From Arsukibacterium tuosuense (GTDB lineage Bacteria; Pseudomonadota; Gammaproteobacteria; Steroidobacterales; GCA-2729495), in contig CAMBYH010000004.1 of assembly GCA_945872065.1 (NCBI GenBank), positions 1 through 64,000 of the forward strand: 64,000 nt of DNA, read 5' to 3'. The notes under the pieces are model-generated. The model ran no database searches. It was given only the letters and a program-made list of their open reading frames with translations, and had not been told where the DNA came from. Below are positions 23,696-30,789 of this stretch, piece by piece. Position 1 is the stretch's first letter, and the number at the start of each line of letters is the position of its first letter. The position numbers and the translations under genes are program-made.

Positions 23696-24856
23696 TTAGC
23701 CCAGGACTCTGGCTATCGTCCAGTAGGCGCCCACCAGGGCGATCAGTGCGGAAGCCGGGACCACGACCCGATTCCGGTACCAGGGTCGCCGGCTGAACCA
23801 GAAGCCCACCGTTAGCAGCGCTGCTCCGATCACCGTGAGCTGGCCGAGTTCCACCCCGACGTTGAAGGCGATCAGCGCTGGCAGGAATTCCCCGGCGGGC
23901 AAGCCCAGTTCCTTGAGCACACCGGCAAAGCCCAGCCCGTGCAGCAGGCCGAAGCCGAAGACGATCCAGACCCGCCAGGGCTTGAGTTCGCCGCTCACGA
24001 TGTTCTCCACGGCGACGTAGACGATGGACAGGGCGATCAGTGGTTCCACGACCGACGCCGGCAGCGAAATGAGTCCGTACAGGGACAGACCCAGTGTGAT
24101 CGAGTGGGCGACGGTAAACGCTGTTACCTGATAGAGCAGCGGTCGCCAGTGCACTGAAAGCAGGAAGATCCCCAGGACAAACAGAATGTGGTCGAGGCCC
24201 TTCGGCAGGATGTGGGTGTAGCCAAGAACTGTGTAGTCGCGGAACACATCGGCCCTGGTGCGCACAGGGACCAGGGCCGGGTCCAGCTGAAACGGCGCGC
24301 TCTCCGTTCCTGCAGTCAGCCAGTCGGCACGGACAATGGTCCCGTCGGGCAGCGCGAGGCGCAACGCGCTCTCGCCAAACTCCGGTGCGTAGCGCCACGT
24401 CAATGCCTTGCTCCCGGCTGGAATGGCGCCACTGAGCGTGACCGTCGTCAGCCGCTCCACCCCAGTGTTGCCGACCGGCGGAATATCGACTTGAGTCTCG
24501 GCGGGAGACACCGGCCTGCCGTCGAAGCGCAGGGTGATACCCCCAAGCAGTCGCGGGGCAAACTCCTCATACCGGGCCTGCAAAGACGCCGGTGGCAGTT
24601 CCCGCAACGCGTTGTAGGTCCCCGCCTGGGGGGCCTGGCTCGTGTCTTCATGCTCCGGGCCGATACCCGCCAGTAGTGCCTCCAGATTCAGCTGCAGGGC
24701 CGCTGTGTAGGTGCCATCGGCATTGAACGTGACGGTAACGATAGCCGGACGGAGCCGGTGCGCCATGGCCATCTGGGTAGCGAGGAGCCCACCGAGGAGT
24801 GCAAGAGTCAGGACCCCGGTAAGCAGCGAGGTGGGTGGTCGCAGTCGTCGGCTCAC
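23696..24856 (-). CDS. HupE/UreJ-family membrane protein
   Basis: The 386-aa protein has a signal peptide (likely cleavage at AMA-HRLRP, about residue 32), a periplasmic N-terminal domain of about 170 residues and then six or seven membrane segments. The membrane part carries HILPKGLDHILFVLGIFLL, TAFTVAHSITLGLSLYG and FGFGLLHGLGFAGVL, the histidine-rich motifs of HupE/UreJ, a family linked to nickel or cobalt entry. The first residue of the predicted mature protein is His. The GTG at 24856 is 39 bp from the divergent DUF4198 gene. No hydrogenase or urease genes occur in the window, so the metal is unassigned. Confidence 0.85.
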   Translation of the reverse strand: MSRRLRPPTSLLTGVLTLALLGGLLATQMAMAHRLRPAIVTVTFNADGTYTAALQLNLEALLAGIGPEHEDTSQAPQAGTYNALRELPPASLQARYEEFAPRLLGGITLRFDGRPVSPAETQVDIPPVGNTGVERLTTVTLSGAIPAGSKALTWRYAPEFGESALRLALPDGTIVRADWLTAGTESAPFQLDPALVPVRTRADVFRDYTVLGYTHILPKGLDHILFVLGIFLLSVHWRPLLYQVTAFTVAHSITLGLSLYGLISLPASVVEPLIALSIVYVAVENIVSGELKPWRVWIVFGFGLLHGLGFAGVLKELGLPAGEFLPALIAFNVGVELGQLTVIGAALLTVGFWFSRRPWYRNRVVVPASALIALVGAYWTIARVLG

Positions 24857-24895
24857 GGCAACATCTCGCTCGAGGGACTGTGAGAGACTAACTGA

Positions 24896-25753
24896 ATGAA
24901 AGCGCTACTCACCAGTTCCCCGCTACGCGGCATTGCGCTGGTTTTCCTGGCGGGCGTCTGGGGCGAGCCGGCAGGGGCGCACGACTTCTGGATCGAGCCA
25001 GCGGTGTTTGTGGCGGCTATTGGCACCAAAGTACCCGTCAGCCTGCGCGTTGGCGAAGACTTCAATGGCACGAGCCAGCCCTACGTGAAGGACTGGTTTC
25101 TGGATTTCTCGGTCACTTCAGCGGCGGGACGCGAGCCGGTGATGGGTTTTGCCGGTGACGATCCGGCCGCCACGCTCATCCTTAAGTCTCCGGGGCTGAG
25201 GCTGATCGGCTATCACAGCGCCCGATCCTTTGTGGATCTCGAAGCGGAGCGCTTCAACAAGTACCTGCGCTCCGAGGGGCTCGAGCGGATTCAGGCGCTG
25301 CGCGAGGAGCGCGGGGCAGCCCAGGCCAACGGGCGGGAATACTATTCCCGGTGTGCCAAGTCTCTGATCGGTGTTACTGGTCCCGCAGTCACCTCTGTGG
25401 ACCGTTCTGGCTACGACCAGCCGCTGGGCTATCCACTGGAACTGCTGCCGCGAGCCAACCCCTACGCGCTGTTCCCGGGCGACCGGTTGCCGATTGCCCT
25501 CTGGTACCAGGGAAAACCCATCGAGGGCGTGCTGGTCATTGCCTTTACTGCCGACCAGCCAGCCCGGCGATTCCAGGCGCGCACCGGGAAGGACGGTATC
25601 GTCAAGCTGCCCCTCGATCGCGCCGGGAGCTGGCTGGTCAAGGCCGTACACATGATCCCTGTGCCGGCCACCGACCCGGCGGCGGACTGGGAGAGCTTCT
25701 GGGCTTCCCTGACCTTTGAGGTTCGCGCCCGGGACGCCTTGTCGGCGCGCTGA
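24896..25753 (+). CDS. DUF4198 exported protein
   Basis: The 285-aa product has a signal peptide ending AGA, with the mature protein predicted to begin HDFWIEPAVFVAAIGTKVPV, the typical start of DUF4198 proteins, a beta-rich periplasmic family often encoded beside metal transporters (NikK-like). A second domain after about 175 has the appearance of a beta-sandwich (GKPIEGVLVIAFTADQPARR, GSWLVKAVHM). Its closest neighbour is the divergent HupE/UreJ gene, with only 39 bp between, so they probably share a regulatory region. Metal binding by the N-terminal His is an inference. Confidence 0.82.
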   Translation: MKALLTSSPLRGIALVFLAGVWGEPAGAHDFWIEPAVFVAAIGTKVPVSLRVGEDFNGTSQPYVKDWFLDFSVTSAAGREPVMGFAGDDPAATLILKSPGLRLIGYHSARSFVDLEAERFNKYLRSEGLERIQALREERGAAQANGREYYSRCAKSLIGVTGPAVTSVDRSGYDQPLGYPLELLPRANPYALFPGDRLPIALWYQGKPIEGVLVIAFTADQPARRFQARTGKDGIVKLPLDRAGSWLVKAVHMIPVPATDPAADWESFWASLTFEVRARDALSAR

Positions 25754-25766
25754 CCGGAAGTGCCTG

Positions 25767-28514
25767 CTACCTGGGTTGCTCACTCCGGATCCGCTCCAGG
25801 GTTTCACCGAGTTTCCTGATTTCCTCACCGTACAGTGCCCAGTTGCCCGCGCGTTGTGCCTGCATGGCCTGCTGATACTGGAGTTGCGCCTGCTCCGCGA
25901 GGCCGCCCACCCCTGTCCCGGTGCGATCTGAGGCATCGGCGGTGGCGGATCCAGCAGCCGTTGGAGAGACCAGACCAACGCTGCCAGCGGCGGGCGCCTT
26001 CTGCCGCGCGGTGCCGCTGCCCGGGAACAAGCGGGCCAGCGCCATATCCAGGGTTGGCTCCATCACGATCTGATTGCGGTAGGCAACCACCACGCGCTTC
26101 AGCTCCGGAATCCGGCCGCCGGCCGCCCGCAGGTAGAGAGGGCGGATGTAGACCAGGGATTCTTCCACCGGAATGACCAGAAGCGTGCCCTGGATGACCT
26201 CCGAACCCTGCTGGTTCCACAAGGTGATCTGCGGCGCAATCACCTGGTCCTGACTGATGCGCGCCGAAATCTGGCGTGGGCCGAAGATCACCGTCTGCTT
26301 GGGGAGCTGGACGACCATCAGCTTGCCGTAGTTCTCCCCGTCGCTGCGGGCGACCAGCCAGGCGGCGAGATTGTCTTTCTGCTTTGGCGTGTAAGGCAGC
26401 ATCTGGACAAACTCCGGGTCCGTGCCTCCGGGAAGCTTCATGATGGTGTAGTAGGGCGCCATGGGCTGGCCGCCTTCCTGGGCATCAAGAGAGGGGATGT
26501 CCCACTGATCTTCCCGGTTGTAGAGCGCGTCGGGACTGGTCATGTGAAAGGTGGCGTACATCGCCGCCTGCAGGCCGAAGATCCCCTGGGGGTAGCGAAG
26601 ACGCTCCCGCAGGTCTGCCGGCATGGCGGCCAGCGGCCGAAACAGTTCAGGGAAGACCCTGGAGAGCGTGGCCGCCAGTGGATCTGCGGGGTCCACGAGG
26701 TGAAACACGACCGTGCCGTCGTAGGCGTCGATCGTGACCTTGACCGAGTTGCGGATGTAGTTCACACCACCAGCGCCCGGCGTGGAGTAGGGGTAGCGTG
26801 AGCTGGTGGTATAGGCATCCTGCACCCAGACCAGGCGCCCGCCAGAGATCGCGAGGTAGGGATCCGGATCGTAGGTCAGAAAAGGGGCAATGCGCCGCAC
26901 GCGCTCGGCGATCCGGCGGTACATCAGGACCCGGCTACCCTCGATGAGGTTTGGCGAGAACAGCACTTCCGGTGAGCCGAACCGGAGGGCAAACAGCAAG
27001 CGGCGGAGCAGGGTGTCCACCGCAATACCGCCCTGGCCCGCGTAACTGCCGAAGACGTTGTCGTCACCCTTGGGGTAGTCAAACTCCGCCGTGCCGGTCT
27101 TCACGAACACGTGGTCGTTGGACAGCTCGCCGTAGTAGATGGCGGGCTGTTCAACCTTCAGGTCCACCGACGATGCCAGGGGCAGATCCTTGATAAAGAG
27201 CACCGGCAGCCCTTCGGGCGTCACTTCGTTCACCGGGCCCAGAGTCAGGCCGTACCCGTGGGTGAAGGTCAGACGTTCGTTGATCCAGGTGCCGCTGGGC
27301 AGGGCAGCAGAATTCATCTCCCGGGCGGAAAGCATGATCTGCCGGTACTTGCCGTCAATCACGTAGCGATCGTTGTCGACCGACGCGAAATCGTAGTACG
27401 TGCGGATTTCCTGCAACTGGCCAAAGGTATCCAGCAGTGGCTGTTCATTCCACAACGGCACGTTGTCGAAGGTGGCCCGGTTGCGCTCGATGTCTGCGGC
27501 CGTCAGGGTGGCCTCGCCCGACAGCTGGCGCTCCTCCACCTTGTCGAGGTCAAAACCCGTCCGTGTGGCAGCGATCGAGTGGACGATGTAGGGGCCCTCA
27601 CTGACCTGCTCGTTGGGCGCTACCACCAGGCGCTGCAGGGCGATGCCGTAGGCCTGGCCCGCCACTCCCACCAGGATGTACCCGCCCACCGCAGCCAGCA
27701 GTGGCCAGAGGCGCTGGGTGCGCGTCTGCCAGAGCGCCAGTGCCGCCCCCAGGCACGCGACAACGACCAGCGCCCACTGCGTGGGAATGCCGGCATGCAC
27801 GTCTACATAGGAGGCGCCGTAAACGATCCCGGAAGGAGAGACCAGCAGCTCTGACAGTCCGAGCCACGCCCGAAAAGCCAGTAACAGCAGGAGTAACGCG
27901 GCCAGCACACTGAGATGGAGCCGCGCGCTGGCGCTCATCTGGATGCCCCGCACCGGATCCAGCTGGAGATTCTGGCCGGCAAAGTACCCGAGGGCGGCAG
28001 CCAGTCCGGCGAGAAGCGTGGTCCAGAAGGCGAAATTGAGCAGCGCGTGCAGCAGCGGCACGTGAAAGATGTAGAAAGCGACGTCGTGGCCCAGGATCGG
28101 GTCGCTGTTGCCAAAGGACACCGCGTTCCGGGACATCAGCCAGGTGTCCCATTGACCGGCGGCGTAAAGGCCCATCAGGCCCGCGGCCACGGCACTGCCG
28201 ACCAGGAATATGGGTTTCAGGCTCGCTGCGTCGAACGCGACCGTGCGTGCCCCTTCCGGACCGAAGACGGTGAATGACCGCGGCCCGAGGGACCGCTGCA
28301 TAAGGCGCACGTTCGCGTAGAGCGCAGCAAACGCGACGGCCAGGCCCGCCGCACCAAGCGCCACTTTCGTGCTCAGGATGCGCAGGAATATCTGCTGGTA
28401 ATCGACCTCGGCAAACCACAGCCAGTCAACGTAGAACCCGGCCATCGAACTCACGAGCAGGAACGCGAGAAAGAGGGCGATCAGAACGGGGCCAAAGAGC
28501 TGCTGGAGATTCAT
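25767..28514 (-). CDS. UPF0182 family membrane protein
   Basis: The 915-aa protein matches UPF0182 (COG1615): about seven membrane segments in the first 330 residues (starting MNLQQLFGPVLIALFLAFLLV; DWLWFAEVDYQQIF is a typical segment), then a large extracytoplasmic domain with WNEQPLLDTFGQLQEIRTYYDF, LPVLFIKDLP and YRQIMLSAREM. The function is unknown. ATG 28514 is preferred over the GTG at 28646 because it begins at the first membrane helix and AGGA lies about 10 nt upstream. The C-terminal 60 residues are predicted to be low-complexity. It is convergent with the DUF4198 gene. Confidence 0.88.
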   Translation of the reverse strand: MNLQQLFGPVLIALFLAFLLVSSMAGFYVDWLWFAEVDYQQIFLRILSTKVALGAAGLAVAFAALYANVRLMQRSLGPRSFTVFGPEGARTVAFDAASLKPIFLVGSAVAAGLMGLYAAGQWDTWLMSRNAVSFGNSDPILGHDVAFYIFHVPLLHALLNFAFWTTLLAGLAAALGYFAGQNLQLDPVRGIQMSASARLHLSVLAALLLLLLAFRAWLGLSELLVSPSGIVYGASYVDVHAGIPTQWALVVVACLGAALALWQTRTQRLWPLLAAVGGYILVGVAGQAYGIALQRLVVAPNEQVSEGPYIVHSIAATRTGFDLDKVEERQLSGEATLTAADIERNRATFDNVPLWNEQPLLDTFGQLQEIRTYYDFASVDNDRYVIDGKYRQIMLSAREMNSAALPSGTWINERLTFTHGYGLTLGPVNEVTPEGLPVLFIKDLPLASSVDLKVEQPAIYYGELSNDHVFVKTGTAEFDYPKGDDNVFGSYAGQGGIAVDTLLRRLLFALRFGSPEVLFSPNLIEGSRVLMYRRIAERVRRIAPFLTYDPDPYLAISGGRLVWVQDAYTTSSRYPYSTPGAGGVNYIRNSVKVTIDAYDGTVVFHLVDPADPLAATLSRVFPELFRPLAAMPADLRERLRYPQGIFGLQAAMYATFHMTSPDALYNREDQWDIPSLDAQEGGQPMAPYYTIMKLPGGTDPEFVQMLPYTPKQKDNLAAWLVARSDGENYGKLMVVQLPKQTVIFGPRQISARISQDQVIAPQITLWNQQGSEVIQGTLLVIPVEESLVYIRPLYLRAAGGRIPELKRVVVAYRNQIVMEPTLDMALARLFPGSGTARQKAPAAGSVGLVSPTAAGSATADASDRTGTGVGGLAEQAQLQYQQAMQAQRAGNWALYGEEIRKLGETLERIRSEQPR

Positions 28515-28662
28515 CGGTACGGGGTCCTGACTGAACGGCAAAACGCTGAAGTTGTTTCTGCCCGAGTGCCGGCGCAAGGTGCCGGAAACGGTGTCGGCTG
28601 GTCTAGCGGAGTGGACATAACCATAAATGGCACGGGAACGCGACACCCTTCCGCGCTGCGAC

Positions 28663-28777: not shown

Positions 28778-30187
28778 GTGTCTCGCCGGGGAATCATCTT
28801 GCCTCCGAAAACTTCAAAGTCGCTTCAGGCCCTGCTTTTTCTCGGCGTCCTCATGGGCGCCCTCGACCTGGCAATCATTGGGCCGGCCCTGCCTGGCATC
28901 CAGGCCGAGTTCGGCATATCGACGCGTCAGCTTTCGGTGTTGTTCAACGCCTACGTCCTGTGCCAGATGATCGGCACCCCCCTGCTCGCAAAGTTCTCCG
29001 ATCGGGTCGGTCCGCGCACAGCCTACGTCGTCAGCGTAGGGTTGTTTGGGCTGGGTTCCCTCCTGCTGGTGCTGGCCACCGAGCCCGCCATGCTCTACTG
29101 GGGCCGGGCCATCCAGGGCTTCGGCGCTGGCGGCGTGGTCCCCATCGCGGCGGCCATCATCGGCAGCACGCTGCCGCCGCAGGAGCGGGGTCCGGCGCTC
29201 GGCACCCTGGGCACTGTCTTTGGTCTGGCCTTCATCATCGGTCCGGTGCTGGGCGGATTGCTGTTGCCGTTCGGCTGGCACTGGCTGTTCCTGATCAATC
29301 TGCCGATTGCCGCTGTACTGATCGCTGGCGCGTTTCGCCTGTTACCCGCGACCAAGCCCCCGGCCAGGAAGCCGCTTGACGTTGCGGGGATTGCAACGCT
29401 CTCGCTGTTGCTCACCGCTCTGGTCTTTGGTCTCAACGGGCTGGATACCACTGCCATCTTTGCCAGCCTGCTCTCCTGGCCCGTCGCGCTGGCGCTGGTG
29501 CTTGCCCTGAGCCTGATGCCGGTGTTCTGGCGGATCGAAACCCGGGCTGTGGACCCGATCATTCGCCCAGGACTCTTCAAGTCCGGTCCCGTAGTGATCG
29601 CGTCGCTGATCGGCGCCGGAATTGGCGCAATCCAGTCTGCTGGTACCTTTTACCCGGCGCTGGCGATTGCAGCGACCGGCGTGTCAGCCAGCACAGCGTC
29701 GTGGCTGCTGCTGCCCGGCGTCGTCGGGGCGACCATTGCCTCGCCAGTTTCCGGCCGCCTGATCAATAGGGTGGGGACCCGCAGGATCGTCATCGTCAGC
29801 CTGGCCATGGTCGTGGCGAGCGTGCTCATGTTCGCCTTCGCACCGATCTCAATCCCGGTCTTTGTCCTGGCAAGCTTCGTTGGCAGCACTGGCCTGGGCG
29901 GCGTCCTTGGCGCCCCCTTGCGACTCGTAATCCTCGACAATTGCCTGCCCGCCGAGCGGGGTTCTGCTCAGGGCATCCTCAGCAACCTGACCTCAGTAGG
30001 TCGTCTGCTGGGCGCTACCTTCGTTGGCAGCGTTGCTGCCTCAGTTGGCGGGGGTATCGAGGGCTACCAGGCGGCCTTCATGGGCATGGTGGTGGTGGCA
30101 GCGGCAATGCTGGCTCTCGGCCTTGCGCTGACCCCCCCGGCAGCCAAACAGCCGCTAAACTCAGACCAGGCGCCAATGAGACCCTAG
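28778..30187 (+). CDS. MFS transporter (DHA2-like)
   Basis: This 469-aa major facilitator has about 14 hydrophobic segments. The first loop contains KFSDRVGPRTAYV (motif A), helix 4 LYWGRAIQGFGAGGVVPIAAAI and helix 5 GTVFGLAFIIGPVLGGLLLPFGWHWLFLINLPI (motif C plus the drug/H+ antiporter pattern W-R/H-W-x-F-x-I-N-x-P). This points to the DHA2 drug-efflux group. The substrate cannot be predicted. It starts with GTG and ends 11 bp before the SCO1-like gene. Confidence 0.87.
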   Translation: MSRRGIILPPKTSKSLQALLFLGVLMGALDLAIIGPALPGIQAEFGISTRQLSVLFNAYVLCQMIGTPLLAKFSDRVGPRTAYVVSVGLFGLGSLLLVLATEPAMLYWGRAIQGFGAGGVVPIAAAIIGSTLPPQERGPALGTLGTVFGLAFIIGPVLGGLLLPFGWHWLFLINLPIAAVLIAGAFRLLPATKPPARKPLDVAGIATLSLLLTALVFGLNGLDTTAIFASLLSWPVALALVLALSLMPVFWRIETRAVDPIIRPGLFKSGPVVIASLIGAGIGAIQSAGTFYPALAIAATGVSASTASWLLLPGVVGATIASPVSGRLINRVGTRRIVIVSLAMVVASVLMFAFAPISIPVFVLASFVGSTGLGGVLGAPLRLVILDNCLPAERGSAQGILSNLTSVGRLLGATFVGSVAASVGGGIEGYQAAFMGMVVVAAAMLALGLALTPPAAKQPLNSDQAPMRP

Positions 30188-30198
30188 TCGGTCGGGAG

Positions 30199-30789
30199 TT
30201 GCCCCTGCGTTTTCACGGCAGAATACTGGTGACCCTGGCGCTGCTCGTCGCGACGGCAACCTGGGCGGAGCCGGCGCGGGTTCTCGAGGCCACCCCCCCC
30301 AAGGCTGTTACCGACTTCGAACTGACCAGCCAGGACGGCCAGCCCTTTCGTCTCAGTCAACTCCGGGGCTCTCCCGTGCTGGTGTTTTTCGGCTTTGCCC
30401 ACTGCCCCGACATCTGTCCGATGACGCTGGGGCAACTGCAGGCCGTCGTCAGCTCCCCGGACATCGCGGCGAACCAGGCCCGCGTGGTAATGATCAGTGT
30501 CGACGGCGACCGGGACACCCCCGCCGTCCTAAAGCGGTATCTGGCGCCCGTATCCCCGGATTTCATCGGCCTGACCGGCAATCCCCGCAAGGTGCGGGAC
30601 ATTGCCGCGCAGTTTTCCGCCGTGTTCTTCCAGGGCATGCCCGCCGATGCCGCCGGCAACTATCTGGTAGAGCACACCTCCCAGGTGTACCTGCTGGACA
30701 AGCAGGGCCGGCTGCACAGCACGTTCTTCAATGCTCCCGCGGATGTCATCGCCGCGGCGACCCGGCAGGTGGGTCTGGCCAAGCCCTGA
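30199..30789 (+). CDS. SCO1/SenC family copper-binding protein
   Basis: The 196-aa thioredoxin-fold protein has an N-terminal hydrophobic export segment (RILVTLALLVATATWAEP), the copper ligands CPDIC (Cys69 and Cys73) and the conserved distal His in YLVEHTSQVYLLD. SCO proteins deliver copper to cytochrome c oxidase or act as periplasmic thiol reductants. The only plausible start before the signal segment is TTG 30199, since the frame is blocked by nothing upstream but overlaps the MFS gene. No cytochrome oxidase genes are near; its pairing with an MFS transporter is unusual. Confidence 0.85.
   Translation: MPLRFHGRILVTLALLVATATWAEPARVLEATPPKAVTDFELTSQDGQPFRLSQLRGSPVLVFFGFAHCPDICPMTLGQLQAVVSSPDIAANQARVVMISVDGDRDTPAVLKRYLAPVSPDFIGLTGNPRKVRDIAAQFSAVFFQGMPADAAGNYLVEHTSQVYLLDKQGRLHSTFFNAPADVIAAATRQVGLAKP

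Follow-up and report, generated by a model that had tools for sequence, protein, structure and literature searches.

The stretch of DNA analyzed here (the window) comprises positions 1 to 64,000 of contig CAMBYH010000004.1 in the genome of the gammaproteobacterium Arsukibacterium tuosuense (assembly GCA_945872065.1; 2.71 Mb in 130 contigs and listed as 100% complete). Two genes are arranged head to head within it. A HupE/UreJ-2 permease gene with an N-terminal Ang-1 ectodomain (386 amino acids; PF13795 and 9gce_A matches) occupies positions 23696–24856 of the minus strand with a GTG start at 24856. A gene for a secreted DUF4198 protein (285 amino acids; PF10670 match and AlphaFold2 model) lies at 24896–25753 on the plus strand with an ATG start at 24896. 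The divergent start codons are separated by 39 bp (24857–24895). The initial annotation proposed that both mature proteins begin with histidine and that the pair is a stand-alone module for acquisition of nickel or cobalt. Both reading frames and families were found as it described, along with the gap between them. The interpretation was upheld in part: the histidines, the co-occurrence of the two genes and their stand-alone character are supported, whereas nickel or cobalt as the metal is not. The pair probably constitutes a two-gene periplasmic module for metal capture and import, as judged from the sequence and by analogy with characterized relatives.

Both families were identified recently through the presence of histidine after signal peptides (Franco Cairo et al., Nat Commun 2025; PMC12537917). 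Thus, the analogy with histidine-brace proteins drawn in the initial annotation already was published for members of both families, and the central idea is less novel than was supposed. According to that report, the mature N-terminal histidine is present in 79% of the DUF4198 family, and IsDUF4198 binds nickel with a dissociation constant (Kd) of 18 nM through His1 and His18 (9GCB) and prefers Ni2+. For RbAng-1a, which forms the ectodomain of a HupE/UreJ-2 protein, the values are 74 nM for copper and 220 nM for nickel, with binding through His1 and Asn41 (9GCE), the latter residue being described as not highly conserved. These ectodomains were named anglerases, DUF4198 was noted among the prevalent neighbors of Ang-1, and the authors proposed that metal capture feeds the permease for import (PMC12537917). 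In our literature search this was the only paper that contained both "DUF4198" and "HupE", and the only one that contained "anglerase". Proteins resembling CutF that possess only His-rich motifs also have HupE/UreJ neighbors (PMC9973294).

Predicted N-terminal histidines of the two proteins

The permease matched PF13795 (HupE_UreJ_2) with an E-value of 4.7e-49 and a score of 166.5 bits (cut-off 24.5), and the transmembrane domain extends across residues 208–355 (23792–24235, minus strand; Pfam). Signal peptidase follows a −3,−1 rule in which an A-x-A motif precedes the cleavage site. A signal peptide of residues 1–32 that ends in A-M-A is predicted from the sequence and from alignment with 15 other paired homologs (24761–24856, minus strand), which would expose His33 (AMA-HRLRP; codon at 24758–24760, minus strand) as the first residue of the mature permease. 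The best match of the permease in the PDB by phmmer was 9gce_A (E 5.8e-12, residues 33–168) with His33 positioned on the histidine that is residue 1 of the chain, and the beta-sandwich Ang-1 domain was recognized by this match. Histidine was present at the aligned mature start in all 16 paired sequences of alignment A2, that of the window included. When motif patterns were applied to stop-to-stop frames of the 37 paired loci described below, a small residue followed by histidine was found in 36 of the HupE proteins, the sole exception being a Mesorhizobium plasmid protein (LAWPHEIG). Residue Ser73 of the permease aligns with the metal ligand Asn41 of RbAng-1a, and the second ligand therefore is not retained. 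This substitution does not exclude membership of the anglerases because, as mentioned, Asn41 was reported not to be highly conserved (PMC12537917).

In the membrane domain, His215, His223, His251, and His306 were invariant in 17 sequences of alignment A2, and the motif HI-x-P-x-G-x-DH was complete in all 16 paired sequences (HILPKGLDH in the window). The other HupE_UreJ_2 protein above the cut-off in the same genome (L101:5790-6809, contig G000:C9; L and G numbers designate loci and genomes) provides an internal control for the paired permeases: its ectodomain is shorter, aspartate stands at the aligned mature start (AHA-DEFRP), one residue is missing from the membrane motif, and no DUF4198 match was found in the surrounding 12 kb. 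An AlphaFold2 model of the window permease, built from three sequences, was too poor (predicted local distance difference test score, pLDDT, of 52) and was set aside. No HupE relatives were found in viral contigs. A 72-bp segment is duplicated exactly, in tandem and in frame, close to the 3′ end of the HupE gene of L050 (L050:2866-3010), which is that of L024 also; the duplication adds 24 residues and may be either real or an assembly artefact.

The DUF4198 protein matched PF10670 across residues 26–253 (E 7.1e-32, 111.7 bits, cut-off 34). Neither this protein nor the permease matched NCBIfam at an E-value of 0.1. The nearest named relatives of the DUF4198 protein were found in gammaproteobacterial metagenome genomes and were 90% (L002) and 71% (L003) identical in the best segment. 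A signal peptide of residues 1–28 that ends in A-G-A (24896–24979, plus strand) is predicted from the sequence and from low pLDDT: most of residues 1–26 scored under 50 in an AlphaFold2 model with a mean pLDDT of 87.4, which fits a cleaved peptide. Residue His29 (AGA-HDFWIEP; codon at 24980–24982, plus strand) is the predicted first residue of the mature protein, in line with conservation in the subfamily and with the alignment to 9gcb_A. In this comparison (VIA) the model matched 9gcb_A with Z 19.4 and a root-mean-square deviation (rmsd) of 3.7 over 204 residues at 17% identity, and residue 29 was superimposed on chain residue 1. The closest solved fold was 9mhm_B (Z 24.9, rmsd 2.5, 217 residues). 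In sequence searches of the PDB the window protein alone reached only 6ner, 9mhk, and 9mhi with phmmer, and not 9GCB, whereas profile A1, built from the window protein and 14 relatives including other phyla, reached 9gcb weakly (E 4.7e-5) and 9mhk with E 4.4e-16. The motif of a small residue followed by histidine was present in all 37 DUF4198 proteins of the paired loci. In subfamily proteins with readable starts, residue 1 was histidine (36/36) and residue 2 was aspartate or glutamate (36/36); L037 was omitted from these counts as the contig end removes the start of the gene.

Taken with the A-x-A motifs, this conservation and the homology to 9gce_A and 9gcb_A provide good grounds for assigning histidine as the predicted mature N-terminus of both proteins, with the model contributing in the case of DUF4198. 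As the motif was present in 36 of 37 HupE and 37 of 37 DUF4198 proteins, the paired histidines are not a chance occurrence. The second nickel ligand of IsDUF4198 is not shared: His18 (LLLGH) aligns with Glu26 of the mature window protein (LRVGE), and 21 of 22 paired members have glutamate (11), valine (5), glutamine (4), or asparagine (1) at this position. Other conserved candidate ligands in the mature protein are an acidic residue at position 6 (22/22 paired members), Glu120 (36/36), and His224 (17/22 paired members).

Linkage and arrangement of the gene pair across genomes

The initial annotation suggested co-occurrence of the two genes in other genomes as a check. A total of 37 paired loci was assembled: 14 from the genus and family (window included), the contig-truncated G026, 6 from a class sample, 2 from plasmids, and 14 from other classes. 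Linkage was judged inside the stretches examined, mostly of 3–8 kb, and DUF4198 proteins that scored 100 bits or more against profile A1, a line drawn by us, were regarded as the window-type subfamily. Among the window genome and 59 relatives of the same genus, family, and order, DUF4198 was detected in 25/60 genomes and HupE_UreJ_2 in 37/60. Fourteen of 16 testable window-type loci in this set were paired, the window's own included, compared with none of eight other-type loci in stretches of ~3.7 kb, although search tables placed HupE ~4 kb away at one of the eight (G057:C8). The unpaired window-type loci were L023 and L028; L037 was cut by the contig end, and L038 and L039, which fell below the Pfam cut-off and did not match profile A1, were left out of the other-type set.

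The class sample comprised 274 genomes, own included, and all 41 DUF4198 places above the cut-off besides the window were examined. Pairing with HupE was observed for 6/6 window-type proteins, counting G145 in which HupE is split over two contigs, and for 0/35 others, among which L099 was counted as it was unmatched by profile A1 (Fisher p 2e-7). A phylum sample covered 398 genomes, the window genome among them, with gene coordinates matched by eye. In this sample the genes were adjacent in at least 14 genomes of other classes belonging to three families, and all were divergent among the matches listed. HupE was near 15/22 window-type and 1/10 other DUF4198 genes in the 32 phylum places examined among those matches, which were chosen rather than random and included all those with a permease nearby and some of middling score. 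Thus, linkage to HupE follows one DUF4198 subfamily, which adds to the published work. The one other-type locus near HupE in the phylum places, L133 (G563:C1:5371040-5371944), does not resemble the other pairs: its DUF4198 match, located in a long frame, is weak and partial, and this frame apparently faces a HupE-like frame tail to tail.

The two genes were head to head in 34 of the 37 pairs and tail to tail in one (L063). In the remaining two they were on the same strand, with 2.7 kb (L102) or 42 bp (L103) between them; both of these are on plasmids, the 2 best-scoring among the 488 plasmid records that the HupE protein matched. The spacing between the two histidine codons ranged from 111 to 296 nt with a median of 183.5 nt in 32 of 33 divergent loci analyzed, L032 being unmatched and L058 having been left out of the spacing script. 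Gaps from start to start in 27 loci, based on start codons picked by rule rather than measured, extended from −30 to 140 bp, and in nine the genes touched or overlapped (zero or less). As the signal peptides contribute ~60 nt each, the tightest loci at a minimum must have each promoter extending into the partner gene. A 15-nt block, CTGTG(A/C)GAGACTAAC, situated in the gap at 24878–24892 is a possible shared control element; 14 of its 15 positions are the same across four close relatives (the window, L042, L043, and L050). No sigma-70-like promoters were found in 24700–25060. The conservation of the head-to-head orientation makes joint control of the two genes plausible.

The flanking genes change between loci, so that the pair itself appears to be the unit. 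Across 20 paired loci (3.7–22 kb), families that recurred in three or more loci were confined to the window's own family of genomes, except for fasciclin, in keeping with the earlier suggestion of a stand-alone module; Pfam naming at the other loci covered ten neighbors and seven proteins. A gene for a fasciclin-family protein is next to the pair at L046:10291-10863, L048:10074-10601, and L063:5630-6193 (Pfam check in L046 and L063). In the window, a gene for a UPF0182 protein of 959 amino acids (25767–28646; Pfam) is tail to tail with the DUF4198 gene with 13 bp between them, and at a distance of 4.4 kb from the pair a SCO1/SenC copper chaperone gene (30184–30789; Pfam) follows a gene of the major facilitator superfamily (MFS). 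The SCO1 gene was considered as a copper clue for the pair, but was dropped because the flanks vary between loci. The gene order of the window is kept only in L043, whose contig ends inside the MFS gene, before SCO1. An Rfam scan of the window yielded no family at the gathering score.

Proposed mechanism, candidate metal, and alternative explanations

In the module that we consider probable, export and cleavage of the DUF4198 protein would leave His1 unblocked. This residue would bind a divalent transition metal, and the protein would serve as a carrier in the periplasm. The inner-membrane permease would be the HupE/UreJ-2 protein; its periplasmic Ang-1 domain would likewise begin with a free histidine and may take metal either from the periplasm or from DUF4198. 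The metal then would be passed to the histidine motif of the membrane domain (HILPKGLDH, H251, H306) for import, and the divergent genes would share one short control region.

The sequence, the families and fold by homology, the conservation of His1, and the conserved, subfamily-linked pairing are observed; we infer metal binding, hand-over, direction of transport, co-regulation, and metal identity for these two proteins. Several points weigh against this proposal. Ligand His18 of IsDUF4198 is missing from the window-type subfamily, and the metal and affinity of the subfamily may differ accordingly. Nine of 44 testable subfamily members in the genome samples do not have an adjacent permease (2/16 from genus to order, 0/6 in the class sample, and 7/22 in the chosen phylum set), and one of 35 paired loci, L119, adjoins a HupE fragment only. 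The HupE match in question (L119:1857-2987), beside an intact subfamily DUF4198 gene, scored 98 bits compared with 375–520 bits in L104–L117; from the low score it apparently is a broken or partial permease. An adjacent permease also was not found in the stretches examined at any of 11 loci in Planctomycetota or Acidobacteriota (L004–L006 and L008–L015, with little or no upstream sequence for L008 and L012), nor in that of L007, a gammaproteobacterial metagenome-assembled contig. ATP-binding cassette (ABC) transporter genes and an annotated resistance-nodulation-division (RND) efflux adaptor gene are situated 2–4 kb from HupE on the Leisingera plasmid of L102. In favor of the proposal, the DUF4198 genes of the acidobacterial loci L008, L013, L014, and L015 adjoin genes for outer-membrane barrels resembling TonB receptors (OMP_b-brl_4, CarboxypepD_reg; Pfam), a setting that also fits a periplasmic carrier.

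The identity of the metal was approached through candidate client enzymes. The absence of hydrogenase and urease near the pair, remarked in the initial annotation, extends to the entire genome in which neither NiFe hydrogenase (PF00374) nor urease alpha (PF00449) was matched. Similarly, NiFe hydrogenase, urease alpha, nickel superoxide dismutase (Ni-SOD), and CbiC were without a match in the window genome and in 13 relatives of the genus and family with a clear pair. These absences render classical use of nickel or cobalt doubtful, but they are soft in the pair-bearing genomes G025 (78% complete) and G031 (87%) because these are incomplete, which also counts against the proposal. None of the 60 genomes has a match to the corrin synthesis protein CbiC, assessed as a cobalt client, or a match above the cut-off to urease alpha, and hence neither is discriminating. 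Of 37 genomes of the genus and family, 14 (own included) have the pair and six have PF00374, four of these partial, but the two never occur together; this non-overlap is borderline (p 0.04, Fisher 0.06) and uncorrected for relatedness. COX1 was tried as a copper client and likewise did not discriminate, as it is present in the window genome and in 58/60 overall, with or without the pair. Its near-universality means that a need for copper does not distinguish pair-bearing genomes, and it was not found in pair-bearing G031; both observations are further points against the proposal. Copper nevertheless is favored because RbAng-1a prefers copper, with COX1 present as a copper client and the nickel clients missing. 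With modest confidence, and by way of a guess founded on analogy, the metal may more likely be copper than nickel for classical enzymes, although this is uncertain.

That the two proteins instead take up nickel or cobalt in the manner of classical HupE, to feed nickel enzymes, is judged to be unlikely. This explanation accords with the description of HupE/UreJ relatives as nickel transporters (PMC5557971, PMC4771312), with the preference of IsDUF4198 for Ni2+ and the binding of nickel by RbAng-1a (PMC12537917), and with the potential existence of nickel clients outside the searched set, such as glyoxalase I. It is opposed by the missing client enzymes, in so far as these discriminate, by the borderline non-overlap with PF00374, and by the loss of the nickel ligand His18. 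It is less probable again that the pair serves not acquisition but the handling of excess metal (sequestration in the periplasm, sensing, or detoxification). In parallel with this idea, a gene with a HupE/UreJ domain was the most up-regulated on exposure of Sphingobium to nickel (PMC5557971), and the L102 pair has the aforementioned transporter and efflux adaptor neighbors. However, apart from the pair and fasciclin, the one family named by Pfam, the 20 loci yielded no gene family shared by at least three of them outside the window's own family, and the published model for Ang-1 is one of capture for import (PMC12537917). An incidental neighborhood in which the two proteins act separately would accommodate the nine unpaired subfamily members, L007, and the 11 loci of other phyla, but is very improbable in view of the subfamily-specific linkage in the class sample and of a pairing that persists across three gene orders, and in three families from other classes, while the flanks change.

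Within the capture and import module favored here, a more specific relay can be suggested tentatively, and is itself doubtful: a DUF4198 protein with a single histidine ligand, devoid of His18, might hand copper rather than nickel to the Ang-1 permease where the genome has no classical enzymes of nickel or cobalt. In this relay the close starts, which overlap in about a third of the loci with both starts chosen, would force each promoter into the signal-peptide code of the partner and so tie expression of the genes together. The module joins two recently described metal binders with N-terminal histidines in one testable unit, and the subfamily marks which DUF4198 proteins tend to accompany an Ang-1 permease. 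With nickel clients missing, the identity of the substrate becomes a question that is easily tested. If correct, an importer in which carrier and permease both grip the metal by the first residue would represent a simple design for uptake in several classes of Pseudomonadota.

Comparison with known systems

Classical HupE, typified by that of hydrogenase operons in Rhizobium leguminosarum, is a permease of the HupE/UreJ family to which the window permease also belongs. In contrast to the classical setting, linkage to hydrogenase or urease does not apply here, as PF00374 and PF00449 are without a match in the genome, and the window permease bears an N-terminal Ang-1 ectodomain. The closest solved fold to the window DUF4198 protein is that of Zcp, a metal binder resembling DUF4198 (PDB 9MHI–9MHO) with entries that contain zinc, copper, or cobalt. 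Zcp differs in that identity is ~20%, other ligands may be used, to judge by the triple mutant in the title of one entry (H29A/H31A/H142A), and its HTH stretch is missing from the window protein; no paper on Zcp was found in the literature search. IsDUF4198 of the NikK type (9GCB) shares with the window protein the fold, the PF10670 domain, and histidine at residue 1. The distinctions are the 17% identity, the replacement of His18 by glutamate, and the neighbor of the window gene, which is HupE. NikK of nickel ECF transporters is characterized by linkage to transporter genes of the NikMNQO type; the neighbors at the window locus are HupE_UreJ_2 and UPF0182. The nearest counterpart of the permease is the Ang-1-HupE/UreJ-2 anglerase represented by RbAng-1a, with which it has in common a signal peptide, the predicted mature His1, the Ang-1 domain, and a C-terminal PF13795 domain, whereas Ser73 replaces Asn41. 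Overall, the pair is a further example of the metal-capture system outlined in 2025 and not a new kind; what is new is the linkage of a DUF4198 subfamily to the permease, the tightness of the head-to-head arrangement, and the departure of this subfamily from IsDUF4198 at the second ligand.

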